Source: a virus. Taken from it: 32,432 bases of DNA. Every line of letters begins with the position of its first letter. Position 1 is the stretch's first letter. The position numbers and the translations under genes were made by a program. Positions 11,480 to 31,706 of the stretch are shown here, piece by piece. The stretch lies in the IMG/VR virus record IMGVR_UViG_3300031957_002911, positions 1 through 32,432 of that record; one strand, written 5' to 3'. The notes under the pieces were generated by a model. It was not told where the DNA came from. It ran no database searches and was given only the letters and a program-made list of their open reading frames with translations.

Positions 11480-13042
11480 TTAGAATTCCAGAACTACCTT
11501 AATGTCTTCTTTTTGGCGAGAGTTTCTCGCAATTGTTGGTCTATTGTCTAGGTATATTATTTCACCTGTCCTCTTATTTATCTGTGGGTTTGCTATTCCA
11601 TCTGTGAAGTTAACTCCCAAGTTGACAACATTGTTTCCAAGGATTGTCGTGATTCCAGCAAAGGTAGTGTCAACTGATGCTGAGAATCCACCATCAGTTG
11701 TAATAGACTCTGCAGATGATTCAAAATTGACATATTTTGATTCGGAAGTAACACCAATATAATCGCGTTGTGTTCCAGTAGTTTTATTAAAGTAAAGTGT
11801 TCTATCTTGAATATATTTAATTACGTTTGTTTCTTCGTCAAAAGATGCAACGTATGCAACAGCTGTTGTAGTACCTACAATTTGCTTAATTGTATTACCA
11901 ACGACTAAACTGCCAGATGGATTTACAACTTTAATTTGACCTGTTGCACTAAAGTCATTAGAAGTGAAATTGGATGTGGATCCAAAAGATGTTGGATTTT
12001 TTACAATACCAACTTGTGCAAATTGAGTATCTGTTGGAAAGTTTTTAGTTGAATCATCAAAACGTCCATAAACTAAAACTTTTTCTGCACCAAGTTCTGT
12101 GTATATGTCAAATCCATGACCTTTAGATGGTGGAATAATTGGAATTAATTCAGCAAACTCAGTTAAACTACCACTTTGAATTGGTCCTAGATCAATAACA
12201 CCGTAACTATATCCACTACCACCAGCAGATATTTGAGCATTGATTATTCTTCCACTAGTATCAGTAGAAACAACAACTTTTCCTCCAGTTCCATCGCCAA
12301 GAATATCTAATTCAACATCAAGACCTAGACCATAACCAAATCCAGCATTCTTAATTGAAACTGTTTTTAACTGATTATTATTTACGCTAGAATCACCATT
12401 ATCACGAATAACTGAAACTTGTGGATCAATACTAGTTGACCAATTTGGTGGCAAAGTAATATATTCAGTTGAGTCAAATTTAATAATATCTGATGGAGAA
12501 ACTGTAAACAGATATTTCCAAAAATAACCATCACCACTACTACCAGCCTTAGTTGGTTCTAGATCTGTGAAATTTGGTTCATCTTGAGATGAATTTCCAG
12601 AAGGGTTTGAAGGTGTTGCTCCATTTTCAATACAAATATAAACTCTGAAATCAGAATTCATCACATAATATCTTGCATCATAAAGTCTGGTTGATCCAGT
12701 AACTGGTGATAGATTATTTAAACTATAGTCATGACGATATTGCTCGTAAACATTACCTTGTTCCCAATCAACTCTTTTAATAACTCTACGAATATTAGCA
12801 GGGGTAATTTTTCTACCAAACAGCATCGTATCATAAGCATGATTGCTGTAATTGAAATTATCAACTGGGCTAGGAGGACCAGAAGTGTTGGTATTCCAAT
12901 CAGATGTTCTACCATACCCAATAGCTAAAGTTGGGTTTGGTAGAGACGTAAAGATGAAATATGAATTATTAGAATTCTCAACGGAATCAATAAAATTATT
13001 GACATTTAAGATTCTAAACTGATCCGTTACAATAGCCGCCAT
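11480..13042 (-). CDS. 8: Baseplate wedge protein gp8, enlarged
   Basis: 520 residues against 334 in T4. gp8 is a wedge protein that sits as a dimer on gp7 and gp10 in the outer baseplate. T4 landmarks are present: the AIVTDQFRILNVNNF start, FGRKITPANIRRVIKRVDWEQG (T4 has VIPRRDWGDT), GDGYFWKYLFTVSP plus TEYITLPPNW at 170-201 (T4 GDGYVWEYLFEIPP, NEYIVVP) and the C-terminus TGEIIYLDNRPTIARNSRQK..IKVVLEF (T4 GEMIYMENRPPI...INILFTF). The extra ~190 residues lie between 210 and 490 and include two GxGY repeats and a glycine/serine module with TAVAYVASFD. The ATG follows AGGTAG by two bases, and a late promoter lies 27 bases upstream. Confidence 0.93.
   Translation of the reverse strand: MAAIVTDQFRILNVNNFIDSVENSNNSYFIFTSLPNPTLAIGYGRTSDWNTNTSGPPSPVDNFNYSNHAYDTMLFGRKITPANIRRVIKRVDWEQGNVYEQYRHDYSLNNLSPVTGSTRLYDARYYVMNSDFRVYICIENGATPSNPSGNSSQDEPNFTDLEPTKAGSSGDGYFWKYLFTVSPSDIIKFDSTEYITLPPNWSTSIDPQVSVIRDNGDSSVNNNQLKTVSIKNAGFGYGLGLDVELDILGDGTGGKVVVSTDTSGRIINAQISAGGSGYSYGVIDLGPIQSGSLTEFAELIPIIPPSKGHGFDIYTELGAEKVLVYGRFDDSTKNFPTDTQFAQVGIVKNPTSFGSTSNFTSNDFSATGQIKVVNPSGSLVVGNTIKQIVGTTTAVAYVASFDEETNVIKYIQDRTLYFNKTTGTQRDYIGVTSESKYVNFESSAESITTDGGFSASVDTTFAGITTILGNNVVNLGVNFTDGIANPQINKRTGEIIYLDNRPTIARNSRQKEDIKVVLEF
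12188..12373 (-). repeat. Two GxGY protein repeats inside gp8
   Basis: Residues ~224-245 (LKTVSIKNAGFGYGLGLDVEL) and ~264-285 (GRIINAQISAGGSGYSYGVID) of gp8, separated by a DGTGGKVVVSTD link. They have the same layout as the gp14 repeats: I..x.I.[NG].G.GY. T4 gp8 has no such region, so this is an insert between the conserved GDGY-WKYLF core and the conserved C-terminus. Confidence 0.75.
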
Positions 13043-13083: not shown

Positions 13084-16000
13084 TTATAGGAAGATAATTT
13101 TACTTAGACTACCAGTGTTTCTAAGTCCCAATCCACGTCTTGATATTGAAGAGAAAGTTGTTAACCCAACATCAACAGTATTTCCGCTTACGGAAATTGA
13201 AATTGGAGTATCTCCTCTAGTAAATCCAGAGAGTTTACCCCAAGAGAATTCACCAATATTTGCACCAAAGGTTTGAGCAATTGCTATAACGTTTGTGTCA
13301 GATTTAATATTACAAGTAATAATACCTGTATTACCTTCAATGTTAAATGCGTTTACTGTATAGATGTTATCTAACAGATTTGTTCCGATTCCAACTATAT
13401 CAGAATCATCCACATTAACTGATGTAACTCCAGATCCAGTAACAGTACCCTTAACAAAAATTGGATAACCTTCTAGTAAAGTTGGCAGTAAAGATACAGG
13501 GCCAGAATCATTCAAATCAACTTGAAGTTTAAGTGCAAGAGGATGACCACCAGTTCCAGTTGTTGTACCGATTCCAGTAATAATGCCTGCGTAACCAAGA
13601 ATGATATCTGAATTGCTAATAGATTCAGTTTCAGAAGCAGGGAATTCTACAATTGCTTTTGGTGGATTAGTAGGATCATAACCTAATCCCTCATTAGTGA
13701 GTGTTACTGAAGTTAATATGCCACCTGATGCACTGCCAGTTGCAATTGCAGTAGTTCCAACTCCAATAATTCCATATTTTGAATTGTCAACTTTTGAAGG
13801 ATTTGCAATAGAAACTTCGACAGGTCCATCAGCATATCCAGAACCAGCACTTGCAATAGTTAATGATGTAATTGTTCCACCAACTGATACTGATGCTGTA
13901 ACTGCGGCCGCAACGGGATCGTTATATTTAACAATAAGACCATCTGCAACAACTAGACCAGTGTTTCCTTCATCTTGCTCATATCTAAAGAGATCTGCAC
14001 TCTCAAGGAATATTTCAGAGTCAGTTACACTAAAGTCTCTAATGACTTTACTGGTTGGCATGATTTGTGCTTCAAGTGTTTCTCTGATTTTTGGTTGATT
14101 TTGTTCAGAGATGATGATATCTTTCTTCTGTCTGGTAAAGGAGATTGGTCTGAAGATGTTTGCATCGATACCTTGTCCTCTATAGACATTTGTTTCAATG
14201 TCAGTAGAGTCCTTAATAGAGAAGATTGTTCTTTCATTCTGAGTAGTGGTTTCTGTTCCATCAAATTTCCTGAGTTGAACTTGATCTCCAGGTTTTACAG
14301 TCTCAAATACTGTAACAATGAAACTATCAACGCCTCTAGTTCCTCTATAGAAATAGATGGAAATTACATCAGATGGGCCTGGTGGTGAGGTGAAGTTGAA
14401 GTTGAAACTTGTACCACCTTCAAAGAAGTAATCCTTTTTGGGCACCTGAACAACACCGTTAACAAAGATCAAGAGAACAGAATCCAAGTCAATCTCAGCT
14501 GATCTTTGGTTTGTAGGATCTGTTTGGAAACTTAGAGGGATGCCATTCAAGTTAAGTGGGAATCTAGTTCTAGTTCCATCTTGAAGACTTCTGATTGAGT
14601 CAATATAATCAATTTCTCCAAAGTTCCATGCAGAGAAAGTGTCACTAAGAATTTCAAGAACTTCAAAAGTCAATTGTGAATATTCAGTTCCTACTCCTGC
14701 TGCAGTAACAAGTCCAACTGGAGTAAAGACATCACCTCGTTTGAAGGAGAATCCAGGACTGGATAATTCATAGTTAACAATTCCAAAGAGATCTGTTCCA
14801 ATTCCAGTAGTAGCAGCAGATCCAACTATACAGTCAACTTTTACACCCAATCCAGTTTCTACTGTAGCTCCAATGCCAGGTCTACTAACACCTTGAATTG
14901 GAAGATCGGAGTATGATGGTGTTTCGATTTGAATTGTTGGATTCGTGTATCCAGATCCCTCACCTTCAATATTGAAAGATAAGACACCACCATCGTTTAC
15001 AGTTGCTACTACTGTTGCAGCAGCGCCAGAATGACCTTCCTCTTCAACTACAACATCTACAGTATTGAAGTAACCAGAACCGAATGTCAAGTAATTGTAT
15101 ACTGCAACCTCAGCGTCTATACCACCTTTTCTTCTATTTGGAACAAATGTATGTGCAAATCCAACTTTAAAGACATCGACTATAAATTGGGTGGGTGATA
15201 TGATAGTTTCAATTTCATATGGCCCAACTGATTTGACACCAAATACAACACCATGATCATCGTAGATATGATCAATTGTAGAAACTCCTACATTAGTGAT
15301 AATTTTATTAGAAGCAGGAAGACCAAAGATTTGGAATTCAGATCCTTGAGTTCCATCTGGGAAAATTGAAGTTGTGATGCCAATTCTAACCTTACCAGTT
15401 CCAGAAACATAATCGTGAGCAATTGTAGAAATACCTACGTTTGTAACGATTGATGTTCCAGAACTTCCAGCATTAACGTTAAAGTAGAAACCTTGAGTTC
15501 CATCTGGGAAGATAGTTGTTGTCACGCCTGCATGAGGAGCTGCACATGAGAATTCAATATCGCGAAGCATTACCAGATCACCATCACTTAAACCATGATT
15601 ATCTGCTGTTAGGATTGTACTAACGCCAGTTGATGCGGTGTAATCAAAGTCGTAGATAGCAATCTCATTACCATATGCAAGACAAGTCATTGCAATTCCA
15701 GAGAGATTAATTATATCCCCAATGGCAAGACCGCTGTGATTTTTCTTAGTAGTAATAGTTGAGAAACCAGTTGTCTTGTCATATTCAAAGTTTTCGATTG
15801 CAAAAGGAATTCCTCTATTATCTGGGAATCTAGTAGTGGTAAATCCAGTATCAACATTACCACCACCAACGTAAGTATGTGCAAAACCGACAGGATTTAC
15901 ATTAGTGACGAATGTTGTTGGGCCAACAATTGAATTGACCAAATAACTATCAGCGTATGTTACGCGATTTAAATGTCCACTATGATCAACATATGTGTGA

Positions 16001-19000
16001 GCAATTGTTGATGGACCTACATTAACTGTCAGTGTTGTTGCTGAAGTTGCAGTAACTTCAAATTCATCAATTACAGTATCTGGGAAGATAGTTGTAGTGA
16101 CTCCAGAGTGCTCAGAATCACATGAGAATTCGAGATTTGCCAATCTGACAAAAGATCCAATTCCAATTCCATGAGTTCCCTTTGTAGTGATAGTACCAAC
16201 ACCGATAGACTCGGTGTAATCAAAACCACTAATACCCCACTGAGTACCAATATCACTTGGGAATCTGTCAGTAGTAACACCAATTTCTACTGCAGCCTCA
16301 CTTGTACCAGTTGGAATATGAGGGATAGTGGAAACGCCAACTTGTGTTTCAAATTGAGTTGTGCTATTTCTCTTAGTTACAACATTAAAGACTCTACCAT
16401 TTGTTCCATCTGGGAAGAATGTTGTAGTGACACCAGCATGTTCAGATGCACAAGCAAACTCAAATCTTTCAAGTTTGACTTGCATACCAGGATTCAATCC
16501 ATGAACAAGGTTAGTGGTAATCGTCATGATACCAACAACATTGTTATATTCAAATGTGGTAACACCAACTCTCTTATTGTAAGATCCCGCAGGGCAGATC
16601 ATCTGCAAACCATCAAACTGAACTCTCATATCCTTATTCAGGTTATGATTGCCAGATGTTGTTACAGTCATGATTCCAGATACATTATCATAATCAACAG
16701 TAGAAACGCCAACTAGACTGTCATAGCCACTAGTGCAATCAAACTGAATGTTTCTCATGTCTAAGAAATCATTATTAGTAAATCCATGAGGCCCAGCAGT
16801 AGTCACTGTTCCAATACCACTTGTTCCATCATAGATAAAATCAGTGATGGTTGTATAAGTTCCTACAGTATCAAGACCAACAATATTAGTAATAGTGCCA
16901 CCAGCACCGACCTCAGCAATGACCTTAGCTCCAACTAGAGGTGCTACTCCGATTCCACCAGAAGATGCAACAGAAACAATTACACCACCAACTGGCAGTT
17001 TGTTTTTAATAGCATCAAGTTCGCTAATATAATCATCACCAGTTATCAGTTTAGTTCCACTGAATACTACTTCTACATCATCTACGTTAGATACGATTGA
17101 ATATACATTCAGAGGGTTGTTATCAGTTGACTGACCCTGGTGAACACCATTAAGGAAGAGTAGTCCACTTCCACTAGAAGTATCGAGACCAACAGGATAA
17201 TCTCCACCATTAACACCTAGTGCAAACGTTCTACCAATACCAGTGAATTCAGTTGAAATATCATCATAAAGTTCATTCGTGGTGTAATCACTTCTTAGAT
17301 AAACACGCCCATTAAATTCAGATCTAGTAAATGATAGTCCTCTATCATCGGTAACAAAATCGCCACCAGAACCTTTAGGTGTATCAACAAAGTGAATATC
17401 ACTTTCTACAATGTTATATGCTCCTCTGTGAACAATTGCTGTTTGATTGCTTTCGTGAGCAACTTCTGTTGTTCCAACAAATCCTCTAGCAACATTTACA
17501 AGTTGGAAAGTGCCAATACCAGTAATTGGGCCAAGTCCTGTTGTACCAACTCCAACATTCAAAATGTTCATCATCTCATCACCAATTTTTAAAATGTAAT
17601 CGGGAACAAGAGTTGAGATGCCAGATAGTGCAAGGAATGTTCTACCAACAGCAACTGGTTCAATAGTCTCATGTGTGACTAGTGTTCTAGAAATAGGATC
17701 TTGAACAACACCATCGAGAACAATCAATGATTTTTCAAGTTTTTTGGTAGTGTCAATTAGATGACTGTTACCTTCACCAATACCTGTTGGTGAAATTCCA
17801 AGACCTTTTAGAGCAAAGTCTCTCTTGGTAGCAAGTTTAATGTTATTATTATCAATTCTAATTACAAATAGATTCTCTGGTAGAATATTTGTGGTAACTC
17901 CAGAAAAGTAAGACTGTCTGCTTGTAGTTGCCGTAGCCACAACAGACATTGTAATACCAATTCCAAGTCTTTCTGAATAATATGTGCTTCCAATACCAAC
18001 TGGAACATTATTTGCAACAGTGAGAGATCCTTCACCAATAGCAGTAACAGTTCCAAATCCAGTTTCTGTGACAAGTTCACGAATTGTATCACCAATCGCA
18101 ATAACTGAAGTGTTTGCAACTCCAGTGATAACTTTAGTTCCATCAGAATCTCCAAGGAAGAATCTGAATGTGCTTCCAATACTTACAATAGTTGCACCAG
18201 ATCCAACACCAGGTCCAAAGAACTCTTCACCAATAGATATACCTGAACTATTGCTTGCTGAAGAAACAACGTTTGATCCACTTCTAATATCACCGATTAA
18301 ACTTTCACCACCAGCGGTTGTAGATCCAATAGTAATTGATTCTGAATTAATTCCAATGATAGATGATCCAGGTGCATACTTGATATCCTGGCCATTATTC
18401 ATGAAATGACTTTCTAGGAAAATGTTTCCTGTTGTCTGATCAAATACTGAACTATTTGAAGGATTAAATCTTCTTGCAAAAATCGGATAACCTTCATATT
18501 CTAAAGTGAAACTAGTTCTGTCTTGTGGAGTGTATTTTGCCTGTATAACAAGCTCAATAGCAGTTCCAAATCCAAATTCCTCAATTTGGTTAATGTTTGT
18601 ATCTAGATCGCTATAAACAATCTCACTAAATTCTTCAATTCTGATTTCATCACCAATATATTTTGCATCAGGTAGGAAAATCAACTCACAGAAAACTCCA
18701 TTATATTGAGCACTAAATGATCCAAGACCAATTGGTGTGTTTATACCTAATTGTGGATACTCAAGAACATAGGTATCTTTTTGAGCAAACTCCTGAGCAA
18801 ATAGAACTTGACTTAATGATTCAGTATTTCCACTAGAAACTCTAATGATTGATTTTGAGAAACGATCAATAATTGATGTGATTCCAACAACTGTGATACC
18901 ATAACCAGCATTAGCAGTTTCTTGAATTACATTAGATTCTATTCTTGCTGTTCTTTCTGTACCATTTTGCTGTGCGGGAAGTTTAAAGTGTTCTGTTCTC

Positions 19001-22000
19001 AATCCAACATTGGTGGTTGTGAATCCAACAACATTTGCTTTAATTGTGGCGGTATTTGAACCATCATTATGGAATTCTAATTTTAGAACATCATTTACTA
19101 TATCGGCACCAAATGTACCGATAGGTGAGAAACTTAGCAATCTTTCACTACTATCAAATCCATATTGACCAAGATATGCGTTGACCCCATCATGAAGAAC
19201 AGTTATTTCTGCATATTGCCTTTCAGAAGTTGTATTATCTATAACTTCAACATATGCAAACATTGAATTAAAATCACTAGTATCAAATCCAACAATTTGA
19301 TCTGTAGATCCAGCTCCAATTACAGTGGTTACGCCGATGAGTCTTGTATCACCAATAATATTGGTTCCAATACCAGTAGTTCTTGAATCAAATAGTTGGC
19401 GGAATGCTTTTATATCATAAGTTTTTTCTGAATTTGATGGGGAATATCTTAAAGCGATAGTTCCATCTAACTGAGAAAATTCTGTAGTAAATTCTCCTAG
19501 ACTTTCTTGCTCTTCTACAAGATCTACTTGTAGTTGAGGATTAGATTTGATATTTGATTTTTCTAGAAGGAAGGTATTATTATTACCATCAGTAATAACA
19601 ACCAAATCATAAATTTGGAATGATGTCAGATCAACAACGTCAGTTACTACAACTGTAAATCTAGAATATCCTGTTCCAGAAGGGAACTTAATAATATCTA
19701 CGAAATCACCGACTAAGTTTTCTCTATCAATAAATGATTCACTTATATCATCAATACTCAGAACTCTATTAGTCAAACATTCAATAAAGTTGGTAAGTTT
19801 TTTAGTTCCAAACTTGATTGAATTTGTAGCAAGTTGACTAATATTAGTTACATTCTGTTCAACATCAGTATCAACTGCAAAATCAAAGAAATTGTTAGTT
19901 GTTACATCTGATTCAGAGAATAGGTCAATAACTATAGATTGTGTGCCATCACTAATAAAATTAGTAGAAGCAACAGCTACTGAATTGATTTCAGTGTCAG
20001 CGAAATTCTTTGTACCTGAAATATGTGCCAAACGATTGACTGGACCAATTAGATCATTAAATTTAACAGGACTCTTAATACTATATGCTAGTTTTTGGTA
20101 ATAGTCATTATCTGACATGACTTGAGTATCATCATTCAAGAATCCTTTATTTGTCAACCAACCAAAGTTAATTGTAGATCCACATCCAACATCATAGAAA
20201 CCATCAAAAGTCTTAGTGTCTACAACTGTTCCTCTAGCTCCAGAGATTGAACCAAGAAGTTTATTTCCAACAACCAGTTTTAAATCACCTCTGGTTTTAA
20301 GGAATGCTTCATTAGAAGAATCCACTTTCAAAACAGTTTTGGTTGTTTCACCCAAGTCGTTTTCTAATAGTAAAGGTTCATTATCAATAAAATCTTTACT
20401 AGCGATGTCTACAGAGAATGTTGGGTAAGATTCTTTCTTAACAATAGATCCAAAGTTAACATTAGTAACACCAATTCCAGGAGATCCTGTTCCTATCCCA
20501 GTTAGATCAATTGTAACTTCAGCAGGGTTAACACCAGAATTGAAATTTGTAACTTCAAAGAATCTAAATCCATAATTTTTAGAATTAAATCCATCGCCTT
20601 CTCCAGTATATTCCTGAATACCATCAACAAATACTTCATCACCTGCTTGTAGTGGGCTTGTTGAGAATCCTAATATTGGAGTCACAACAGTTAGAGTCAT
20701 AATTCCAGTTTGAACACTATCAATCTTTGTAATACTTAAACCATTATCATTAATCAAACTAAAGACACTATGACCAACACCCTGAAGACCACTTCCAGGA
20801 TTTATGATTTCAACACTACTAATACTTCCAGAGTCTAATTCGGCAATGATACTTACATCATCAACTTGCTCAAGACTTACTGAGTTTACAAGGACTAAGT
20901 TTGGAGCAGTAATAAAGTTTTTCCCACCATATACTGGTATGATACTATTAGTAGTGAAGTAATTTGTAAGTTCATGTCTTGCTGGAATGTCAGCTACTGG
21001 TTTTAGAGTTTTATCAACAGCAAAGTCAAATCCAGGTTTCTCAACTTCAGTTCTATCCAACAAACCAATATTGGTTGATTTTGGAGCAATTTCAGCATTA
21101 ACTCCTAAGGTTGTTGTAATCGTTGATATTCCAGGAAGTTTATCATAATTAGTTCCTTTGTTCAAAATATTGAGTTTGGAAATTCCACCGAAGGCAGTAG
21201 TTGATTTTGTAGAATATTCTAACTTATCAACTTCAGAAGAACTATAAGAACCTCTTTCAGGTTTTTCCGAAAGACTAACTAAGAATGTTGTACCTGTAGT
21301 TCCTAATCCAACTACAGTTGTTTTTGTAGAATACTCACTATCAACATATAGAATTCTTGAGAAATTATCTACTGAAATATCAGATTCTACAAGAGTATTA
21401 TTTGAAATTTTTTCCAAGTTATAATATAGTTGCTCTGGTAAATACTCGTTAAACTTAATAGTAAAACTAGCCGTTCCCAGTCCAACAGTTCCAATTCCAG
21501 TCAATTCAAATGCTTCAGAACTTCCAGTTCCAACAAGTTCATTTCTATAATCAGAATCATAGAAAATTCTAAAATTATAACCAGACAAGGAACTATCTGA
21601 CACATCAAATTTGATATTATTATTTCTAGTTACTTTTATTTCTGGGTTTACTTTAGATATTGTATGTGAAGTTCCACCAACTTTGGTAAATTCAACTAAT
21701 CTAATAGTTTCTCCCTCAAGGTCAGTTTTAGTTTCTGCAATTGAGAATGCATCTGGATCATCAGAAAATACGAAATACTTTCCAGTATCAATACCAGTTG
21801 TTTCATTCGCATCATAGAATACCAAATCACCAGTAACTAAACCATGACTCTCAATATTAAATCTTGAACTTGATAAACCAACTGAAGCTGAACTGAAACC
21901 AATGGGATCAATAATAGTATTTTGAGTGAACTCATTAAATAAGACTCTTACTGCTGTTGATGTTCCAATACCAACTGTTAGATTTGGTTTTACATTTAAT

Positions 22001-25000
22001 CTAACTTCATCATCTTCTTCAAGACCATGAGAAGATGCTGTCGCTACTCTTGCAGTTAATCTTTCTACTCTACCAGTTACCTGCTTATAATCTGATGTGA
22101 TTTGATATTCATAATCGTCTGTATCACAGGAAACGAAATTAATTTCTGCAGAATCTAAAGTGGTTTTAATACCAATGGTATTTGTACCTTTATTGACAGC
22201 ATATACTAGTTGTTCATTTCCAGATAAAGGAAGAGTAAATGTATACGCAGCACCAACTGTAGATACTGCAATAGCATTACCAGATGCTGGTTTTATAATC
22301 TTAATTGGTTGATTATCTGTAAATGTATGATTCTCAAGATAGATTGAATATGTTGGAACACTTCTAAAAGTTGTTGCACCACTAACAACATAATCTGTAT
22401 CAATTGCTATACCTACAGTAGTTCCAAATCCGACGGCTTCTGTAGGATTAAAATATACAACATCATTTGCTTTAGAATCTAAAGTTGGACCATTAAAATT
22501 AAATATTATTTGACTGGATTTTACTAATATAGAATCTCCAACAGTATGACCAAGCCCAGAGGTTCCTCTTACTGCTCTAATGATGTTATTAAATGGACCA
22601 GAAGTCTTGTAGATATTGAGAACTTTAAAAGTTTCATCATCAATTTGAAGTTCAGAGTTTGGTCTTAAGAACTCTGGGACATTCGAGACTGGTATATCTG
22701 TGGTTATACCACCAACAAATTCTGCTGCTATGTTATCAGTTAAACTAAAGTCGTCAACTGGAACTCCAATATTTACATCACCAGACAAATTAGCAACATA
22801 AGTTGAGAGACCAGAAATTTTAACAATATCATTCGGTTCCAAATCATGATATGTTGAAATGAATCCAGCTACCTGATTTCCATTAAGAGTTTCAAATACA
22901 AATTTATCATATGTCAAAAATTCCTCTGTTATACTATTAACAAAGTCTCCAGTAACTTCTGAGACTTGAGCGGATGCTGATCCACCAGTTGTATCACTAT
23001 TATCAAATACAACACTATCACCAATTTGATAATTTGTTCCTTTCTTTACAATAGAAATACTTTCTATTTGACCTGTTTTTCTAGACCTTACAGTAACCCT
23101 TTGACTATCAAAATTATAAGGTTGAGTAAAGAAGTTATAATCAGCACCAACTTCTGCAACGTTGTACGGGAAAGTATTTCTAATTAATTCATTTCCAACA
23201 AAATCAAAATCTTGATTTAGTGATACTGAAGATCCTGCAAGATTTTCTTCAATAACATTGGATCTATATGAATCACCCATGAAATATGGGAAACTAGATG
23301 CGAGATCTCCAGTTAATGGATCTAGTTCTAACGTTGCAAAGTATGCATAAGTTCCGTTTGGAAACTCTGGTGTTTTGGTAAATCTACCATTGTGCTTATC
23401 TAAGTCGCCAGAATCATTAAACAAATAATCTTCGACAAATAATCCAGATTCAAATCCACTTGGTCTATTGGTGACTTGATTAATATCAATAACATAACCA
23501 GATTCAATTAGTTTAATAGCAGAAGTTTGATCACCTGAGTCTGTATAACCAAAACATCCATAAATTGGATTTCCGTCATATGCCCATCCAATTAGTGGTG
23601 AGTGTTTGGTGTTATCAGTGTCTTGGAAATCTGACTGTAATTTTGGACTATAACCAACAACAGCATATTGTAAGCCGTTTTCACCTTTATCAATTATAGC
23701 TTCACCACCATAATCTTTAAATCTTGCTCTGCTGTTGAGAGTTAGACTTCTAATAGATGAACGTAGAACTGCTCCACTTCCTCTTGATACTGGTTCAATT
23801 TTAGTGTCTGAGAAAACATAATTGTTACCACTCGCGATAACAACTACATCTGTAACCAGACCATTTGCATCAGTAACTGCTCTCGCTATACAACCACTTC
23901 CAGATTCACTAATTATATTAATATCAGGTGGAGAAAAATAGTTATTTCCTGGTTGTGTTACTAAAATATCAACAATCTTTTTATCAACAATTACCGCTCT
24001 AAATTCTGCTCCAGATCCTATATCAATACTTACAGATGGCCTATTATGGAAGTTTAGAACTTTAGATCCATATGATGTTCCACCATCATATAGAAGGGCA
24101 TCTTTTATGTTGCCTGTTACAATAGGAGTAGCTGTTACAACACCTACAGTATTTGCAATGGATACTGAAATATCAACTGTGATTTCTGGATAATTGAATA
24201 AGTGAAGACCCGTTCCAATCCCAGTGATTTTTTCAGTCAATCCTCTATCAAAATTAGTATTACTAGTTCCTGCAACACCAGCGTCTGCAATTCTAAAGTT
24301 ATGATCATCTATTTTGATAACATAATACTGATTTGATGTTGATAGATCTGGAATCTTATCACCAGTAGCGTTATATGTAATTAACTCACCTGTAGAATAT
24401 CCATGATTTTTAAATGTGAATGAATTATTAGATGTTGAGATACCTGTTGTTTGAATAGCAACTTGTCTATTTTCATATCCAACCCCACCATCTAGAACAT
24501 TAACACCAGTTAATTGCTTGGTTGATTGTGCAGTTCTAAATTTATGTAAACCACCACTGTTACTACCAGTACTAAAACCAACAGTGTTTATACCACTATT
24601 AAAATCTGATTCATTTTCATATAATCTAAAAGATACTGGATCAATAACTTCGGTAAAGTACTTACCACCAGTTTCTAGGAAATTACCAGTAACACTAGTC
24701 AATCCAAATCCAGTGACTCCTAAAGATCTGTTACCATTTGGATCATAGATAATTTCTTGACCATTTCCAAAATTATGATTATTGGTTGTTCTAATAAAAT
24801 CACCATAAACGGAGACGCCACCACCATCAGAGGCATTCTTACCATTAAATATAACTTCTCTAAATTGATCAATTACAGTTGGTTCGACTAAAGCCCCAGT
24901 TCCATTACCACCACTTATACTGATGCTTATGACTCGATCAATATCAAAGTCTTGTGGATCAATAAGAATATCTTTAAGGGTTCCTACTACGGCAACATTT

Positions 25001-27318
25001 GCCAGAGCAGTATTTCCAGAATTATCCGAATCTGCAATGATACATTTTGGTGGATTGATTACATCATAACCAGATCCAAAATTGAAAACACTAATTTTTT
25101 CAACGGGTCCAAAAAATACTTTGTCGTCAATTTTATAATTTGTAAGTTCTACACCATTTTTAAGAATGCCAGAAGCTCCAGCAATTGTGCTGGTTTCACT
25201 ACCAGTATCTAATGATCTTATCAATGAAAACTTCTTTAGAACCTTTTGTGGCGAAATCTTCTTATCAACTTGTTCTGATAATGAGAAGAAGTGAGATCCA
25301 GTATTTCCATCATCAGGAACATTTAGTTTTACATTGATACCAGTATCAATGAATGATCTGGCAACATAAAGTTTTATTTTATTGTTCGGTGATTGAACTT
25401 CAACAAAATAACTTCTACCAAACTCCAAACCTTTAATTGGTTCAGTTGCAGTTCCAGCAGAATAAACTACCTCATCACCAGTTATGAAAGGAACAGTATT
25501 TGAAAATGAAATATTATTATAATCACCAAGTGAATCTTGATCATCAAGAGTTCCAGAAGATACTGATGCCTCAGCAATTGAAACCTCAATTTGATTTAGA
25601 TCAATGTTGTAATCAGGTAAAGAGTTTGATGCAACATAAAGAGTACTACGATTTTTTGTAATATATGTGTTCAACACATTTGATACTAGAGTATTATTGC
25701 CATAACTCAGTTCAATACCAGTGCTAGATGCCTTTTTAATTTGTCTTCTAATATCATATGCTCTACCCTGCACCAAATCGGAAATATTACCACCAGATAA
25801 TACAACTTGCTTATCACCAGTGATTGTAGCTGTGGTTAACCCAACAACAACATCAAGAGTTTCACTATTGACAACTTCTACATTATCACCGTCACTAAGG
25901 AATGCATCATCTAGACTTCTTTCTAGAACAAATACAGAACCATTAAAACTTTCAACTTTTATACTTGATGCAGTATTATATTTCCAAGAGTTGAATGAAA
26001 TCTGTTCGTAAGTTTTATTAGATGGAGGATTTAGAATTTTTGAACCAACTGTTTTGGCTCTATAAACTTCACCTATGTTTGCGTTGTAGATATCTTCCTG
26101 TGGATCAAATTCTGATATTACGCCAGTTAACCTAAGTTCTACTTTTTCATTAGTATCGCTTGTATATCCATATGCAACGTCATTGGTTCTAATATTTGTA
26201 GCAGGTGCAATGTTTGCGGTAACACCAGAACAACCTAAGAATTGATTAATAGTTTTATCAGTGTATGTAATGACATCACTGCCATTTCTTAACACACCAC
26301 TCTTAGGGAATCCAATGGTACTATCTACCAAAATTACATCACTTCCAATGAGAGTATCCCCAATGGTTTTTGAGCTTGGTGTTATAGAGAAGGTGCCATC
26401 AAAACCAGGAGATGGTTCTTGATATCTTAGGAATAGAGAAACCGTATAATATGTAACTCCACCTCTAATAGTTTCTTCTACTTCAGAGATGGGAGCTGAA
26501 CAACCACCAATATCTGGATTATTGCTATTACTATCCTGGAATAGTGTTTGACCAGATAATTTGGATGGATCTCCACCATCAACCTTTTCAGTCAATAATA
26601 CTAGTCTCTTTCTGAATGATGATTCAGACGGTTCAAGTAAAAACTCTGACTGCTTTTTAACTTTTGAGTTTTGGCCAAATAATATTGATATTAGAGTATT
26701 GATTGATTCAGCAGTACCCTTAGACTGATAGAATGACTTTAAATTCTTAACTAAGTTGTTTACATTTACATCTGAATCAAAAGACTCGTTCTCAAATCCA
26801 GGTGCATATAATACTTTTAAGTTTTTAAAATATTCTCGTAAAAATAGTGTACTAAGGTTAGTTACACCAATCCCTGTAGTGTGGTCTTTGGCGTTGGTAT
26901 TGTTAAATGTAACCTCACCATCATTATATTCACTGATACCACTAAATCCACGAACACAACCCGTGAATGAATTGGTTGTGATTCCACTGTAATAAATTAT
27001 CTCATCATTAAGTTGAAAGATACCATCTTTATTTGGATATCCTTTTGTAGAGAATACATTGATAACTGTATCACTACTAGAGACATCTGATGTCAGAGTA
27101 GTGATGCCAGAAACTACTTCTGGAGTTATATTATCAAATTTTAAATATTGATCCAAATTATCAATTAGATCTGCAGGAGAGCCCTGAGAATCTTGTGATT
27201 TATAATACTGTTTTAAAAAATCAACCGCCTTTGGTGTTTCTACTGAAACATAAGATGGTAATTGACTTTCAATAATTTGATTGACTTTTACTCTTGTATC
27301 AAATCCAGTTTCTATCAT
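13084..27318 (-). CDS. 7: Giant gp7-like baseplate wedge protein, 4744 aa
   Basis: One uninterrupted frame of 14,235 bases, 44% of the window. It lies between gp6 and gp8, the slot of gp7 (1032 aa in T4, the wedge initiator). The N-terminal ~310 residues carry the gp7 signature: ESQLPSYVSVETPKAVDFLKQYY (split here in two: ESQLPSYVSV, then AVDFLKQYY), SFYQSKGTAESINTLISILF at 195-214 (T4 has FYSTKGIEASYKFLFKVL), and LSGQTLFQ at 254-261 with YYTVSLFLRY at 290-299 (T4 LVGQTIYT, WTVTIHNLLG). The rest is beta-rich mosaic: GxGY repeats, many HG-x-x-x-G-D-x-V-x-[FY] modules with YFV/YYV strands, a YHYH-like domain (~1235-1345), a six-copy FPDGT repeat block (~3490-4023), and a DGTRTRF...VLLIFVNGVVQVP module (~4246-4310). 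No signal peptide, membrane segment or catalytic motif is seen. The symbol 7 applies to the N-terminal part. Ribosome site AAGGT precedes the ATG. Confidence 0.88.
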   Translation of the reverse strand: MIETGFDTRVKVNQIIESQLPSYVSVETPKAVDFLKQYYKSQDSQGSPADLIDNLDQYLKFDNITPEVVSGITTLTSDVSSSDTVINVFSTKGYPNKDGIFQLNDEIIYYSGITTNSFTGCVRGFSGISEYNDGEVTFNNTNAKDHTTGIGVTNLSTLFLREYFKNLKVLYAPGFENESFDSDVNVNNLVKNLKSFYQSKGTAESINTLISILFGQNSKVKKQSEFLLEPSESSFRKRLVLLTEKVDGGDPSKLSGQTLFQDSNSNNPDIGGCSAPISEVEETIRGGVTYYTVSLFLRYQEPSPGFDGTFSITPSSKTIGDTLIGSDVILVDSTIGFPKSGVLRNGSDVITYTDKTINQFLGCSGVTANIAPATNIRTNDVAYGYTSDTNEKVELRLTGVISEFDPQEDIYNANIGEVYRAKTVGSKILNPPSNKTYEQISFNSWKYNTASSIKVESFNGSVFVLERSLDDAFLSDGDNVEVVNSETLDVVVGLTTATITGDKQVVLSGGNISDLVQGRAYDIRRQIKKASSTGIELSYGNNTLVSNVLNTYITKNRSTLYVASNSLPDYNIDLNQIEVSIAEASVSSGTLDDQDSLGDYNNISFSNTVPFITGDEVVYSAGTATEPIKGLEFGRSYFVEVQSPNNKIKLYVARSFIDTGINVKLNVPDDGNTGSHFFSLSEQVDKKISPQKVLKKFSLIRSLDTGSETSTIAGASGILKNGVELTNYKIDDKVFFGPVEKISVFNFGSGYDVINPPKCIIADSDNSGNTALANVAVVGTLKDILIDPQDFDIDRVISISISGGNGTGALVEPTVIDQFREVIFNGKNASDGGGVSVYGDFIRTTNNHNFGNGQEIIYDPNGNRSLGVTGFGLTSVTGNFLETGGKYFTEVIDPVSFRLYENESDFNSGINTVGFSTGSNSGGLHKFRTAQSTKQLTGVNVLDGGVGYENRQVAIQTTGISTSNNSFTFKNHGYSTGELITYNATGDKIPDLSTSNQYYVIKIDDHNFRIADAGVAGTSNTNFDRGLTEKITGIGTGLHLFNYPEITVDISVSIANTVGVVTATPIVTGNIKDALLYDGGTSYGSKVLNFHNRPSVSIDIGSGAEFRAVIVDKKIVDILVTQPGNNYFSPPDINIISESGSGCIARAVTDANGLVTDVVVIASGNNYVFSDTKIEPVSRGSGAVLRSSIRSLTLNSRARFKDYGGEAIIDKGENGLQYAVVGYSPKLQSDFQDTDNTKHSPLIGWAYDGNPIYGCFGYTDSGDQTSAIKLIESGYVIDINQVTNRPSGFESGLFVEDYLFNDSGDLDKHNGRFTKTPEFPNGTYAYFATLELDPLTGDLASSFPYFMGDSYRSNVIEENLAGSSVSLNQDFDFVGNELIRNTFPYNVAEVGADYNFFTQPYNFDSQRVTVRSRKTGQIESISIVKKGTNYQIGDSVVFDNSDTTGGSASAQVSEVTGDFVNSITEEFLTYDKFVFETLNGNQVAGFISTYHDLEPNDIVKISGLSTYVANLSGDVNIGVPVDDFSLTDNIAAEFVGGITTDIPVSNVPEFLRPNSELQIDDETFKVLNIYKTSGPFNNIIRAVRGTSGLGHTVGDSILVKSSQIIFNFNGPTLDSKANDVVYFNPTEAVGFGTTVGIAIDTDYVVSGATTFRSVPTYSIYLENHTFTDNQPIKIIKPASGNAIAVSTVGAAYTFTLPLSGNEQLVYAVNKGTNTIGIKTTLDSAEINFVSCDTDDYEYQITSDYKQVTGRVERLTARVATASSHGLEEDDEVRLNVKPNLTVGIGTSTAVRVLFNEFTQNTIIDPIGFSSASVGLSSSRFNIESHGLVTGDLVFYDANETTGIDTGKYFVFSDDPDAFSIAETKTDLEGETIRLVEFTKVGGTSHTISKVNPEIKVTRNNNIKFDVSDSSLSGYNFRIFYDSDYRNELVGTGSSEAFELTGIGTVGLGTASFTIKFNEYLPEQLYYNLEKISNNTLVESDISVDNFSRILYVDSEYSTKTTVVGLGTTGTTFLVSLSEKPERGSYSSSEVDKLEYSTKSTTAFGGISKLNILNKGTNYDKLPGISTITTTLGVNAEIAPKSTNIGLLDRTEVEKPGFDFAVDKTLKPVADIPARHELTNYFTTNSIIPVYGGKNFITAPNLVLVNSVSLEQVDDVSIIAELDSGSISSVEIINPGSGLQGVGHSVFSLINDNGLSITKIDSVQTGIMTLTVVTPILGFSTSPLQAGDEVFVDGIQEYTGEGDGFNSKNYGFRFFEVTNFNSGVNPAEVTIDLTGIGTGSPGIGVTNVNFGSIVKKESYPTFSVDIASKDFIDNEPLLLENDLGETTKTVLKVDSSNEAFLKTRGDLKLVVGNKLLGSISGARGTVVDTKTFDGFYDVGCGSTINFGWLTNKGFLNDDTQVMSDNDYYQKLAYSIKSPVKFNDLIGPVNRLAHISGTKNFADTEINSVAVASTNFISDGTQSIVIDLFSESDVTTNNFFDFAVDTDVEQNVTNISQLATNSIKFGTKKLTNFIECLTNRVLSIDDISESFIDRENLVGDFVDIIKFPSGTGYSRFTVVVTDVVDLTSFQIYDLVVITDGNNNTFLLEKSNIKSNPQLQVDLVEEQESLGEFTTEFSQLDGTIALRYSPSNSEKTYDIKAFRQLFDSRTTGIGTNIIGDTRLIGVTTVIGAGSTDQIVGFDTSDFNSMFAYVEVIDNTTSERQYAEITVLHDGVNAYLGQYGFDSSERLLSFSPIGTFGADIVNDVLKLEFHNDGSNTATIKANVVGFTTTNVGLRTEHFKLPAQQNGTERTARIESNVIQETANAGYGITVVGITSIIDRFSKSIIRVSSGNTESLSQVLFAQEFAQKDTYVLEYPQLGINTPIGLGSFSAQYNGVFCELIFLPDAKYIGDEIRIEEFSEIVYSDLDTNINQIEEFGFGTAIELVIQAKYTPQDRTSFTLEYEGYPIFARRFNPSNSSVFDQTTGNIFLESHFMNNGQDIKYAPGSSIIGINSESITIGSTTAGGESLIGDIRSGSNVVSSASNSSGISIGEEFFGPGVGSGATIVSIGSTFRFFLGDSDGTKVITGVANTSVIAIGDTIRELVTETGFGTVTAIGEGSLTVANNVPVGIGSTYYSERLGIGITMSVVATATTSRQSYFSGVTTNILPENLFVIRIDNNNIKLATKRDFALKGLGISPTGIGEGNSHLIDTTKKLEKSLIVLDGVVQDPISRTLVTHETIEPVAVGRTFLALSGISTLVPDYILKIGDEMMNILNVGVGTTGLGPITGIGTFQLVNVARGFVGTTEVAHESNQTAIVHRGAYNIVESDIHFVDTPKGSGGDFVTDDRGLSFTRSEFNGRVYLRSDYTTNELYDDISTEFTGIGRTFALGVNGGDYPVGLDTSSGSGLLFLNGVHQGQSTDNNPLNVYSIVSNVDDVEVVFSGTKLITGDDYISELDAIKNKLPVGGVIVSVASSGGIGVAPLVGAKVIAEVGAGGTITNIVGLDTVGTYTTITDFIYDGTSGIGTVTTAGPHGFTNNDFLDMRNIQFDCTSGYDSLVGVSTVDYDNVSGIMTVTTSGNHNLNKDMRVQFDGLQMICPAGSYNKRVGVTTFEYNNVVGIMTITTNLVHGLNPGMQVKLERFEFACASEHAGVTTTFFPDGTNGRVFNVVTKRNSTTQFETQVGVSTIPHIPTGTSEAAVEIGVTTDRFPSDIGTQWGISGFDYTESIGVGTITTKGTHGIGIGSFVRLANLEFSCDSEHSGVTTTIFPDTVIDEFEVTATSATTLTVNVGPSTIAHTYVDHSGHLNRVTYADSYLVNSIVGPTTFVTNVNPVGFAHTYVGGGNVDTGFTTTRFPDNRGIPFAIENFEYDKTTGFSTITTKKNHSGLAIGDIINLSGIAMTCLAYGNEIAIYDFDYTASTGVSTILTADNHGLSDGDLVMLRDIEFSCAAPHAGVTTTIFPDGTQGFYFNVNAGSSGTSIVTNVGISTIAHDYVSGTGKVRIGITTSIFPDGTQGSEFQIFGLPASNKIITNVGVSTIDHIYDDHGVVFGVKSVGPYEIETIISPTQFIVDVFKVGFAHTFVPNRRKGGIDAEVAVYNYLTFGSGYFNTVDVVVEEEGHSGAAATVVATVNDGGVLSFNIEGEGSGYTNPTIQIETPSYSDLPIQGVSRPGIGATVETGLGVKVDCIVGSAATTGIGTDLFGIVNYELSSPGFSFKRGDVFTPVGLVTAAGVGTEYSQLTFEVLEILSDTFSAWNFGEIDYIDSIRSLQDGTRTRFPLNLNGIPLSFQTDPTNQRSAEIDLDSVLLIFVNGVVQVPKKDYFFEGGTSFNFNFTSPPGPSDVISIYFYRGTRGVDSFIVTVFETVKPGDQVQLRKFDGTETTTQNERTIFSIKDSTDIETNVYRGQGIDANIFRPISFTRQKKDIIISEQNQPKIRETLEAQIMPTSKVIRDFSVTDSEIFLESADLFRYEQDEGNTGLVVADGLIVKYNDPVAAAVTASVSVGGTITSLTIASAGSGYADGPVEVSIANPSKVDNSKYGIIGVGTTAIATGSASGGILTSVTLTNEGLGYDPTNPPKAIVEFPASETESISNSDIILGYAGIITGIGTTTGTGGHPLALKLQVDLNDSGPVSLLPTLLEGYPIFVKGTVTGSGVTSVNVDDSDIVGIGTNLLDNIYTVNAFNIEGNTGIITCNIKSDTNVIAIAQTFGANIGEFSWGKLSGFTRGDTPISISVSGNTVDVGLTTFSSISRRGLGLRNTGSLSKIIFL
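15250..16850 (-). repeat. Six-copy FPDGT / HGL protein repeat block in the giant protein
   Basis: Residues ~3490-4023 repeat a unit made of F-x-Y-x-x-x-x-G-x-x-T-x-T-T, H-G-[LIF]-x-x-G-D-x-V-x-L, F-x-C, H-[AS]-G-V-T-T-T-x-F-P-D-G-T and V-G-[VI]-S-T-I-x-H-x-Y. FPD-type cores lie near 16405 (FFPDGTNG), 16256 (RFPSDIG), 16078 (IFPDTVI), 15823 (RFPDNRG), 15497 (IFPDGTQG) and 15348 (IFPDGTQG). At DNA level the plus strand shows CATCTGGGAA in each of the three FPDGT copies, so some are recent. Most units also keep one cysteine in the F-x-C position. Probably a string of small beta domains. Confidence 0.85.
23284..23616 (-). other. YHYH-like domain inside the giant protein
   Basis: Residues ~1235-1345 read HSPLIGWAYDGNPIYGCFGY at 1239-1258, then DLDKHNGRF, TKTPEFPNGTYAYF ending at 1327, and FPYFMGDSY. 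The order A-x-D-G-x-P-I-Y-G, D-x-x-N-G-x-F, T-P-E-x-P-x-G-T-Y-x-Y and F-P-Y is that of the YHYH domain, where the final motif is normally YHYH. Here it is YAYF, so both histidines are replaced. The function of YHYH proteins is not established to my knowledge. Confidence 0.7.
26389..27318 (-). other. gp7-homologous core of the giant protein
   Basis: Residues 1-310, the only part of the giant protein that resembles T4 gp7 and hence probably the part embedded in the wedge with gp6, gp25 and gp8. In T4 the matching segments lie late in gp7 (roughly residues 650-900), so the N-terminal two thirds of T4 gp7 is missing here. Residues ~70-148 form an inserted module (STKGYPNKDGIFQLNDEI, then GCVRGFSGI) with no T4 counterpart. 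Confidence 0.7.
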
Positions 27319-27319
27319 C

Positions 27320-29305
27320 TTACCTTGTTAATTTGCCGTTTGAGTAACTTGAAGTAACTGGGAATCCGATTCCCGAAACTTGCTCACCAGAAGTGATTGT
27401 GTCCTTAACCATATTTATCGTGCTTTTATCTATTGACAATTCAACAAACAAATTTTCCAATCCAATGACATCATTACTTTCTGGAAATGCTTGTACTTCA
27501 ATAGTTCCGTTTGAAAGAACGGTATTAACGATATTAACTGTAAAGATATTAATCTCTCCAGTCTTATAATTAACACTTCCAGCATTCTGTACTTTTACAG
27601 ATGAAACGCCATTTTCATCAATAGAAATAAATGAAATAACGCCCGTTTCGGCTCTAACTGATGACCCTGGTCTTCTATTAAAAACCTCAGTAGCTGCTAA
27701 AGAACTAGTTACATTTACATTATTACTAATAATACCTGGTGTATCTGTCATATAAAGAATATCAGGAACACCAGCAACACTAAATCCTGTTGACTTAATA
27801 TTCGCCCCAGCTGGATTTACATGAAACTGATTACCAAAGCACAACTCATATTGAGCTGGATTATTGATAGAAGATTTCATGTTTCTTCTAATTTTCACTT
27901 TTGTAATATTAGAAGTAATAGAAGTGTCTGTAGAATCAATTACGTTTAGTAGTTTACTATATTTGAATCGGCCACCAAAATTATTAAGATCTTCTGATCT
28001 TGAAAATTCTGATAATGTAGATGTAACAGAACTCTTCAAGTTCTCTAAACTCGAAACTTTACTTCCATTATAATAAACAAAAATATCCAATTCTACATTT
28101 AAAATTTCAAGATCTACAATACTTTGTTTAATCCCAGCAACTGCATAATCTTTAAGTCTACCTAAGATCAATCCTTTATTGAAATCAGATACAAAGTAAT
28201 CATTCTTTGGTTTGATTGAAATTTCAACCTCTCCAAATCTTGGAGGTGTCATTTCTTCACCACCAACTACAGAAACGGATTCTGCATCAGGAAACACTTG
28301 CTTTACAATTGCTTCGTAATCACTAGCCGTAACCGCCCTGTACTGCGATGAGTACGTTTTAGGAGCAAAGTATTTAATAGACTGTATTGATTCAATCTCA
28401 GTCCCTCCTTGCGCCTTCTGGTTAGTCGTTACTACTATACTAGTAGTAGGAGAAATTCTTTCATCTGAAGATCCTCTTAGAACACCAGAGAAACTGAAAT
28501 TTACAACTCCATTTCCTTCGATACCATTAGTTACAATGTAAGATGCAACAATTTGACTTCCAGTTTCTGGTTTCTTACCGATGACACCATCACCAAATAA
28601 TAATTCATATTTTTCATCTCTTACTTCTTGCAAGAAGTAAATTTCTGATGAAGAAGTAATTTTGAAAACAGTATCAGATCTTACGAATTTATTATCAATA
28701 CCTTGATCTAATGGGCCTTTAATTCCTACTCTAAGTGTGCTGGTATCAATAGAAGCATTGTCAAGAATAAATCTTTGATCTAAAGATTGATCGACATTAA
28801 ATTTCTTAACTGCATATGATCCTTCATATACATCAATATCAGAGAAGAGTGCAGTCCTAGCACCAATCTGATTATCTAATGCATTATCTAATGGTGCTGT
28901 TGCGGTAATATCTTCTGGAATAGAAAATACGAAACTAGTGTTTTTGGTGTTTCCTACACAAACTAGTCCCGCTTTTAATGTAACAGTTTGACTGGAACCA
29001 GAAAATTTTACGGAAAATGATATTTTTGACTTAGCTGCAGTGCGTGAACGCGGAGTATAACCAATATTACGCGCCAAAGAAACAACATTCTCTCTTAATG
29101 CTGCGGATTCAATGAAAGATTCGTTGACAATCATGTTCGCATTAAACGAACTGATGTAAGTATTGTAGGCAAGAGTGTCAATTAATACGGAAAAGTTTGA
29201 TCCTTCAAAATCAAAGTCAGAAAAATCCGAATTTGCTCTTAGATAATCTTTAATTTGATCCCTTATTTGATCAAAATCTAAATTAGCGTACTTTGTAAAT
29301 GGCAT
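27320..29305 (-). CDS. 6: Baseplate wedge protein gp6 (baseplate J-like)
   Basis: 661 residues, the same length as T4 gp6 (660). gp6 dimers form the inner iris ring of the baseplate that ties the six wedges together around the hub. Evidence: the N-terminal helix pair IRDQIKDYLRANSDF, DFDFEGSNFSVLIDTLAYNT at 31-50 (T4 DYDFEGSRLNVLCDLLAYNT), the conserved SAALRENVVSLARNIGYTPRS, a baseplate J core with YELLFGDGVIGKKP, and AVTASDYEAIVKQVFPDAESVSV (T4 VTATDYDTFVSERFG). The start is one base beyond the gp25 stop. The stop is one base before the giant gene's ATG. The three genes therefore form one translational unit. Confidence 0.95.
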   Translation of the reverse strand: MPFTKYANLDFDQIRDQIKDYLRANSDFSDFDFEGSNFSVLIDTLAYNTYISSFNANMIVNESFIESAALRENVVSLARNIGYTPRSRTAAKSKISFSVKFSGSSQTVTLKAGLVCVGNTKNTSFVFSIPEDITATAPLDNALDNQIGARTALFSDIDVYEGSYAVKKFNVDQSLDQRFILDNASIDTSTLRVGIKGPLDQGIDNKFVRSDTVFKITSSSEIYFLQEVRDEKYELLFGDGVIGKKPETGSQIVASYIVTNGIEGNGVVNFSFSGVLRGSSDERISPTTSIVVTTNQKAQGGTEIESIQSIKYFAPKTYSSQYRAVTASDYEAIVKQVFPDAESVSVVGGEEMTPPRFGEVEISIKPKNDYFVSDFNKGLILGRLKDYAVAGIKQSIVDLEILNVELDIFVYYNGSKVSSLENLKSSVTSTLSEFSRSEDLNNFGGRFKYSKLLNVIDSTDTSITSNITKVKIRRNMKSSINNPAQYELCFGNQFHVNPAGANIKSTGFSVAGVPDILYMTDTPGIISNNVNVTSSLAATEVFNRRPGSSVRAETGVISFISIDENGVSSVKVQNAGSVNYKTGEINIFTVNIVNTVLSNGTIEVQAFPESNDVIGLENLFVELSIDKSTINMVKDTITSGEQVSGIGFPVTSSYSNGKLTR

Positions 29306-30411: not shown

Positions 30412-30436
30412 AATGACTTAATGCATCTTCACCTAT

Positions 30437-30693: not shown

Positions 30694-30700
30694 AATTAAT

Positions 30701-30889: not shown

Positions 30890-30899
30890 TGCGACCTCC

Positions 30900-31658: not shown

Positions 31659-31690
31659 AATCTGAAATGATGAACTCAGTTATTCTAACG

Positions 31691-31700
31691 TATTATATAG
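31691..31700 (-). promoter_or_regulatory. Possible promoter before the glycosyltransferase
   Basis: Minus strand contains CTATATAATACG, a perfect -10 hexamer TATAAT in the 48-base gap before the glycosyltransferase. A TTGACA lies only 7 bases upstream, too close to be its -35 box, and nothing like a -35 is at 17 bases. A similar TATATAAT precedes the 31707-31895 gene. Confidence 0.3.
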
Positions 31701-31706
31701 CGTCTG

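Follow-up and report, generated by a model that had tools for sequence, protein, structure and literature searches.

A giant putative gp7 of a marine T4-like cyanophage appears to carry its wedge core in separated pieces

T4-like myoviruses reportedly occur throughout the ocean (PMC3037559); a baseplate structure of a marine T4-like cyanophage was not among the literature matches listed. Each T4 tail has six copies of the baseplate wedge subunit gp7, a 119.2-kDa monomer (PMC3004832). The window analyzed here, the whole 32,432-nucleotide stretch of the IMG/VR virus record IMGVR_UViG_3300031957_002911, carries between gp6 and gp8 a single ATG-started open frame of 4744 codons plus stop (13084-27318), whose product has a mass of 508.8 kDa and a calculated pI (isoelectric point) of 4.5. 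Is a protein of this size gp7, and if so, which of its residues form the wedge? An earlier note on this DNA had placed the 14.2-kb frame in the gp7 slot, which was borne out; that the gene lies on the minus strand was absent from it. We conclude that a marine T4-like cyanophage very probably uses the giant protein as its baseplate wedge subunit gp7, with the core in pieces. On the minus strand, gene order is gp25, gp6, the giant gene, gp8, a VrlC-type protein, an LtfC-like protein, a head-tail adaptor, a neck protein and a tail sheath stabiliser.

The N-terminal part carries the link to T4. A profile built from five phages and 22 further N-termini, one of the window and the others of 21 IMG/VR loci, scored 19.7 bits against T4 gp7, compared with 8.0 for the best of 500 T4 gp7 shuffles, and below zero against T4 gp6, gp8, gp9 and gp10. 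Against six T4-type gp7 sequences, hhalign gave 95.4% (E 1.7e-8; window residues 184-295 to T4 722-813), with at most 0.4% for the same four T4 proteins and at most 1.5% in 40 column shuffles; the pelagiphage N-terminal family matched the cyanophage family at 99.0%. The KG(T/I) helix segment was found by both profile and hhalign, and the motif pair named in the earlier note lies where it should, FYQSKGTAES at giant residue 196 and FYSTKGIEAS at T4 gp7 residue 734. The domain V barrel follows the KG helices according to hhalign and to VIA-align, the latter with modest Z scores: residues 233-409 of an AlphaFold2 (AF2) model superimposed on 5iv5_BJ 760-850 (Z 8.4, 2.5 Å, 89 residues) and residues 233-402 on 5hx2_A 761-843 (Z 7.7, 2.7 Å, 82 residues), where 5hx2_A is T4 gp7 and 5iv5 holds the same sequence, its chain BJ being assigned to gp7 by length. 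Pfam gp7 domain V covers T4 766-861, and both methods place the giant protein there in agreeing register. Judged from profiles and a predicted model, the N-terminal part is homologous to the late portion of T4 gp7, as the earlier note had proposed. Its statement that the N-terminal two thirds of T4 gp7 are missing was also correct, the first ~640 residues being absent from the giant protein and equally from the compact gp7 genes of Desulfovibrio phage 7757 (Des7757), Moby, Cr30 and HTVC008M, which start at the core. Only through these compact genes do the N-terminal core helices align to the T4 helical domain (643-689): the N-terminal family matched compact gp7 of Des7757 and Moby at 97.9%, and the first ~300 residues of Des7757 gp7 matched T4 gp7 644-895 at 94.7% (236 columns; at most 6.2% in 40 shuffles). 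Pfam Gp7_helical and Gp7_5th had no direct match in the giant protein.

The compact genes also locate the other end of the core. Des7757 has the order gp25, gp6, a 586-residue compact gp7, gp8 and a DUF4815 protein, and the region of its gp7 that aligns to T4 holds both the KGT segment and a later YYQDFSYVLK...HPAGF segment, referred to below as the closing segment. The YYQ motif lies at residue 2406 in the window, 2485 in P-SSM2 and 3464 in S-RIM2, and as FYQ at 3543 in S-SZBM1; in S-T4 and P-HM1 the motif pattern fails and the closing profile still matches. A longer closing profile, built from window residues 2301-2560 and relatives, matched phages outside its training set, namely S-PM2 (1800-1889, 61.3 bits), HTVC008M (698-822, 53.7 bits) and Des7757 (230-292, 50.4 bits), as well as the further independent phages Cr30 (50.1 bits) and Moby (34.0 bits), and a short closing profile aligned to the T4 family at T4 864-891 (44.8%; at most 3.7% in 60 shuffles). 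The closing segment was thus found behind domain V, strongly by way of compact gp7 and weakly in T4 directly. Because the last core piece lies near residues 2346-2460, the gp7 core appears from these matches to be cut in two, with about 1,900 residues inside it and about 2,280 after it. Two claims of the earlier note were not borne out, that only the first ~310 residues look like gp7 and that the remaining ~4400 are all C-terminal; smaller insertions are two domains at about 72-154 and 311-390.

Both core pieces, in a gene adjoining gp6 as in the giant, occur in the compact gp7 of Des7757 (586 residues), Moby (503), Cr30 (767) and HTVC008M (1016). Between the end of the N-profile match and the start of the closing match, a measure that overstates the gap where the N match ends early (Cr30), these proteins have 66, 161, 530 and 443 residues, respectively, compared with 2,035 in the window. 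The short closing profile was run over 172 sequences, which gave 1340 frames of 120 residues or more. Of 102 closing matches, 90 lay in frames that also carry the N-terminal half, one closing match each; these frames lie on 90 loci, some repeating a phage or contig, and most cyanophage proteins among them belong or are close to the profile-building set, so that S-PM2, HTVC008M and its relatives, Des7757, Moby and Cr30 are the independent tests. Spacing in the 90 frames ranged from 66 to 2689 residues (median 2015; 63/90 between 1900 and 2300), and every frame of more than 2600 residues with an N-terminal half also had a closing segment. The closing segment stood alone in 12 frames, 11 of which begin at a locus edge; the twelfth, from a pelagiphage (L141, 788 residues), has its other part in a separate frame. 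Conversely, 72 of 162 N-profile frames lacked a closing match, and 55 of these touch a locus edge, six being T4-type fragments. The remaining 17 comprise 13 VrlC-like frames (about 2350-2490 residues), S-SZBM1_205, T4 gp7, the L141 part and L078, a gp7 frame of 836 residues stopping inside its own contig. The VrlC-sized frames (window 4046-11476 and 12 loci) matched the N-profile weakly, at 13-18 bits; these matches and that of S-SZBM1_205 are probably due to the small domain of inserts 1 and 2.

A profile-free comparison gave the same arrangement. A single 292-residue query, the Des7757 compact gp7 core, was compared with the whole records of 16 phages and matched all 16: as one block in T4 (query 10-280), in 10 of 11 cyanophages as several pieces, set apart but colinear within a single frame (query 7-66, 86-135 and 240-290 in S-SZBM1), and as two pieces each in HTVC008M, Cr30 and Moby. 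Identity of the closing segment to the 586-residue compact gp7 was 52-55% in S-SZBM1 and S-RIM2, and in the window the query matched at 19987-20355 (E 1.7e-6, query 157-286). Outside the gp7 gene, these 16 records yielded one match only, a short HTVC008M frame with three stops (E 0.0013). Apart from this chance-like match, a separate gp7, which by the earlier note would have refuted its reading, was found neither in the window record nor in the 16 whole phage records. The Pfam family PF23786 (Baseplate_wedge, 284 positions) reproduces the split in S-RIM2, where model positions 172-222 fall at about residues 679-729 and positions 235-280 at about 3458-3499; scored jointly the two exceed the cut-off, and each by itself stays below it. 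P-SSM4 has the same two-place pattern with each piece below the cut-off. Des7757, Moby, Cr30, HTVC008M and one S-RIM2 stretch passed the PF23786 cut-off, and S-PM2 reached 19.7 bits. By alignment, these comparisons show the core pieces to be colinear with compact gp7 genes and, through these, with T4 gp7.

Several results weigh against this assignment. The pelagiphage N-terminal family alone matched T4 gp7 at only 8.6% (hhalign), window residues 1-450 fell short of the PF23786 cut-off (14.9 against 27 bits), and the N-terminal profile found no PDB sequence at E 10, though T4 gp7 was included. Foldseek with the AF2 model returned no match at E 0.001 or better. That model has a mean predicted local distance difference test (pLDDT) score of 63, with core helices mostly below 50, and unrelated chains equal the VIA-align Z over a different part of it. 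For the closing segment, the longer profile is weak against T4 itself (6.7 bits; hhalign 18.7%), and even the short profile gives T4 only the 44.8% mentioned above; none of the seven T4-type entries of the frame scan (T4 gp7 and six fragments), all of them matched by the N-profile, reached the closing threshold. The closing region has no Pfam match, and T4 domain VI (920-1012), sought after the closing segment, was not found (0.1%); it was likewise not detected between the Des7757 C-terminus and T4. The Des7757 query missed the N-terminal half of the window protein at E 1, where profiles were needed, and its single matches in S-T4 and S-SRM01 (E 0.001-0.004) are no better than the chance-like one in HTVC008M. 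Finally, copy number, location and contacts in the baseplate are taken over from T4 and Vibrio phage XM1.

The frame itself is a real gene, not an assembly accident, because all 18 IMG/VR contigs carrying both gene ends read through it without an internal stop. These genes have 3955-4981 codons (12 at 3955-3957, six at 4744-4981); the 18 contigs include the S-T4 genome itself and one that looks near-identical to the window (100% identity in two matched stretches), and contigs L077/L106 and L079/L113, which start inside the gene, were excluded. Three phage records encode 4749, 4878 and 5195 residues. The ratio of nonsynonymous to synonymous substitution rates (dN/dS) was 0.05 to 0.62 against four relatives and below 1 in every computable region, with three cells lacking a value and dS near or above 1 against two more distant relatives. 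Two partial contigs, L078 and L080, have an interrupted frame. The chain might nevertheless be made whole and then cleaved, the C-terminal extension serving as a separate baseplate or fibre protein, which we regard as unlikely. A natural break points that way: in isolate DSL-LC02 (L171:5499-17345) the gene stops just past the closing segment at 2514 residues, and a new ATG one codon on, in the same frame, opens a 1432-residue protein that continues the homology. In L080 an in-frame stop lies a few tens of residues further by profile position; this could be a sequencing error. Against cleavage stands the one frame of all 18 end-to-end genes. In relatives the protein does reach virions: S-SZBM1_208 was identified in purified virions by mass spectrometry with 71 peptides (13.5% coverage, exponentially modified protein abundance index (emPAI) 0.41), its neighbour S-SZBM1_209, which is gp6 by Pfam, having an emPAI of 0.23 (PMC9146016), and S-CREM2 ORF122, ~1937 residues by coordinates and matched to the gp7 slot by position alone, with 91 unique peptides (27.2% coverage; PMC10665884). 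Both proteome tables report coverage, not peptide positions.

A simple C-terminal extension, in which residues 1 to ~450 are the whole core and the match near 2400 is a shared mobile domain, is decidedly improbable. The part upstream of the YYQ motif does match weakly elsewhere (HTVC008M 88-148, 16.1 bits; S-RIM2 and S-SZBM1, 2-6 bits); however, the closing profile occurs once per protein and never twice in the 90/90 frames with both halves, the 52-55% identity to a 586-residue gp7 argues for a core piece, and the segment comes after the barrel in compact gp7, with its weak T4 matches right behind domain V. That gp7 is absent and replaced by VrlC, the giant being an unrelated structural protein (Zaragoza-Solas 2020), is stated in PMC7029224 and agrees with a HMMER match to T4 gp7 spanning only 29 residues, yet we consider it hardly credible in view of the profile, structural-register and whole-record evidence, and because Des7757 has a compact gp7 and a DUF4815 (VrlC-type) gene in one row with gp25, gp6 and gp8, the two coexist, as they do in the window, in conflict with PMC7029224.

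The large size is already on record, and the family is known; of the split core, which several lines of evidence support, we found no description in the open literature searched (subscription papers lay outside its scope). The giant protein is an orthologue of PHROG 2885 ('baseplate wedge subunit'), which it matches with 3195.8 bits, best over residues 2-3002. In a tblastn search of phages with residues 1-320, 360 records matched at 1e-5, every name being a cyanophage or marine virus; direct single-sequence similarity therefore falls short of T4. The nearest listed phage is S-T4 (72% identity in residues 1-320, 65.6% over the whole chain), whose HOU04_gp197 (baseplate wedge subunit, 4749 residues) occupies the same slot, aligns in one BLAST alignment over 1-4744 and differs only in residue changes and small length differences. 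P-SSM2 gp7 (PSSM2_111, 5195 residues) is labelled gp7 and flanked by gp6 and gp8 as in the window, with 36% identity over 5-3001 and 42% over 4110-4738; both its core pieces are found by profile, the single compact query finding the closing piece only, and between 3718 and 4110, a stretch of ~400 residues in the window, it has about 800. S-SZBM1_208 (6619 residues) adjoins gp6, has both core pieces and aligns with window residues 1067-1468; it differs in ~500 extra residues in insert 1, a longer insert 3 and extension, and three additional genes before the next wedge gene. T4 gp7 shares with the giant the KG motif, domain V, a weak closing segment, the gp6 and gp8 flanks and, by way of compact gp7, probably the helices, but has ~640 additional N-terminal residues and no long insert. 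The gene after gp6 encodes 1016 residues in HTVC008M, 1032 in T4, 3048 in S-PM2 (plus a separate 175-residue protein), 3895 in S-SRM01, 4156 in S-SM2, 4446 in P-HM1, 4749 in S-T4, 4878 in Sf-CH5, 5195 in P-SSM2, 6378 in S-RIM2, 6619 in S-SZBM1 and 7312 in P-SSM4, being labelled gp7 in P-SSM2 and P-SSM4. In HTVC008M this gene (gp055, L090:33435-36485), which carries both gp7 core pieces, is annotated 'head closure Hc2', a label that probably comes from a beta domain shared with the neck protein.

Table 1. Domains of the giant protein and neighbouring genes in window coordinates. Domain boundaries are estimates.
Feature	Position	Strand	Basis or remark
Giant gp7 gene	13084..27318	minus	Frame analysis; PHROG 2885
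Core piece A, residues 1-71	27106..27318	minus	Predicted N-terminal helices; profile alignment to compact gp7; low-confidence AF2 model
Insert 1, residues ~72-154, small beta domain (GFP..G type)	26857..27105	minus	Absent between core pieces in Des7757 and Cr30
Core piece B, residues 155-310, KGT helices and first part of domain V barrel	26389..26856	minus	hhalign, VIA-align
Insert 2, residues ~311-390, second insert-1-type domain, apparently inside the barrel	26149..26388	minus	Boundaries inferred
Barrel end, residues 391 to ~409-450	25969..26148	minus	VIA-align
Insert 3, residues ~451-2345, apparently inside the gp7 core	20284..25968	minus	Comparison with compact gp7 genes
Block 1066-1500 with YHYH domain (Pfam PF14240, residues 1233-1332)	22819..24123	minus	Pfam, BLAST
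Core piece C, residues 2346-2460, closing segment (YYQ..Y.IK ... HxxG)	19939..20283	minus	Closing profiles, compact gp7 match
C-terminal extension, residues 2461-4744	13087..19938	minus	Chain cut at its start in DSL-LC02
Variable repeat array, residues ~3481-4109, ~100-residue units	14992..16878	minus	Fragment self-comparison
Conserved C-terminal block, residues 4110-4744	13087..14991	minus	Alignments to relatives
gp25	29307..29708	minus	PHROG/Pfam profile matches
gp6, wedge partner	27320..29305	minus	PHROG/Pfam profile matches
gp8	11480..13042	minus	PHROG/Pfam profile matches
VrlC-type protein (DUF4815), 2476 residues	4046..11476	minus	Next-but-one gene after the giant; distinct from gp7

The inserted parts (Table 1) differ in length among relatives. 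S-RIM2, P-SSM4 and S-SZBM1 have ~500 additional residues within insert 1. Insert 2 resembles insert 1 (E 7e-4) and is bracketed by the VIA-align match, in which the model span 233-409 aligns to T4 gp7 over 89 residues only. Where the window has insert 3, compact gp7 genes carry from almost none to ~530 residues. The block 1066-1500 is the only part of insert 3 that BLAST aligned in all of S-PM2, P-HM1, S-RIM2, S-SZBM1 and S-SM2, lying in S-SM2 within one long alignment; YHYH was the sole domain that Pfam found on the giant protein, which did not match as a member of DUF4815. We considered the extension as a random mosaic and dropped this, since distant relatives match residues 1-3000 in colinear order with 37-40% identity.

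How might such a chain be arranged in the baseplate? Vibrio phage XM1 gp17 (242 residues), called an ortholog of T4 gp7, is described as forming a core bundle with two gp6-like chains through an N-terminal helix-turn-helix, its unresolved segments 80-106 and 201-242 binding tail spikes (PMC10457771). This minimal protein corresponds to the giant by position, not by alignment, in that its loop 80-106 and C-terminus match insert 1 and the extension. By analogy with T4 and XM1, we infer that core pieces 1-71, 155-450 and 2346-2460 would fold together against two gp6 chains; because they would do so, insert 3 would have to leave the wedge and re-enter it, as an out-and-back arm. The last ~2,280 residues would form a second arm from the closing segment, consisting of the variable array and the conserved end. 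Six copies of ~509 kDa each, with copy number and position taken from T4 and XM1, would add ~3 MDa, and each copy would carry its own peripheral armour or fibre-attachment apparatus. That this mass might take the place of T4 pins or short fibres is a proposal of the earlier note. A host-facing role would be likeliest for the variable repeat array.

We consider it likely that gp7 of T4-like cyanophages grew largely from within: three fixed sites in the core, and the stretch behind it, took up domains until chains reached as many as 7,312 residues and came to leave, re-enter and again leave the wedge. If so, a single chain would provide a large share of the baseplate periphery, for which T4 uses separate proteins. 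Record labels (P-SSM2, P-SSM4) and PMC7029224 disagree on whether T4-like cyanophages have gp7; the split-core map favours its presence, predicts which residues belong to the wedge and shows where the chain could be cut to express parts of it. Mislabels like that of the HTVC008M gene may be explained by it as well.

Within the extension, BLAST of the whole chain against itself found no repeats, and the ~100-residue units of the array were found after cutting the chain into fragments. The 3957-residue relatives are largely without the array 3481-4109, their chain resuming at 4079 with 45% identity. Several relatives carry additional residues at 4109/4110 (about window 14992), a recurrent insertion point. 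Against one of four relatives, synonymous difference fell from 0.18-0.41 in the two preceding regions to 0.09 past 4109/4110; the other three showed no such drop. This position may be a recombination or module-exchange boundary. For residues 3820-4744, AF2 gave no usable model (mean pLDDT 33.5).

Some further features of the window were observed. The neck protein gp14 (1086-2465) matches PHROGs 701, 4406, 2885 and 438 besides its own family, giant residues 1097-1172 match the gp14 family, and a GxGY-type beta domain seems to be repeated in gp14, gp8 and the giant gp7. Between the VrlC-type gene and the head-tail adaptor lies a 118-residue LtfC-like protein (3450-3806), which scored 22.8 bits against PF23926, below the cut-off of 27, and matches PHROG 3304 (L-shaped tail fiber assembly). 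G+C content rises from about 0.35 to 0.42-0.43 at window 30001-32000, and a 252-residue frame at 30900-31658, with no Pfam match at E 1, looks glycosyltransferase-like by eye.

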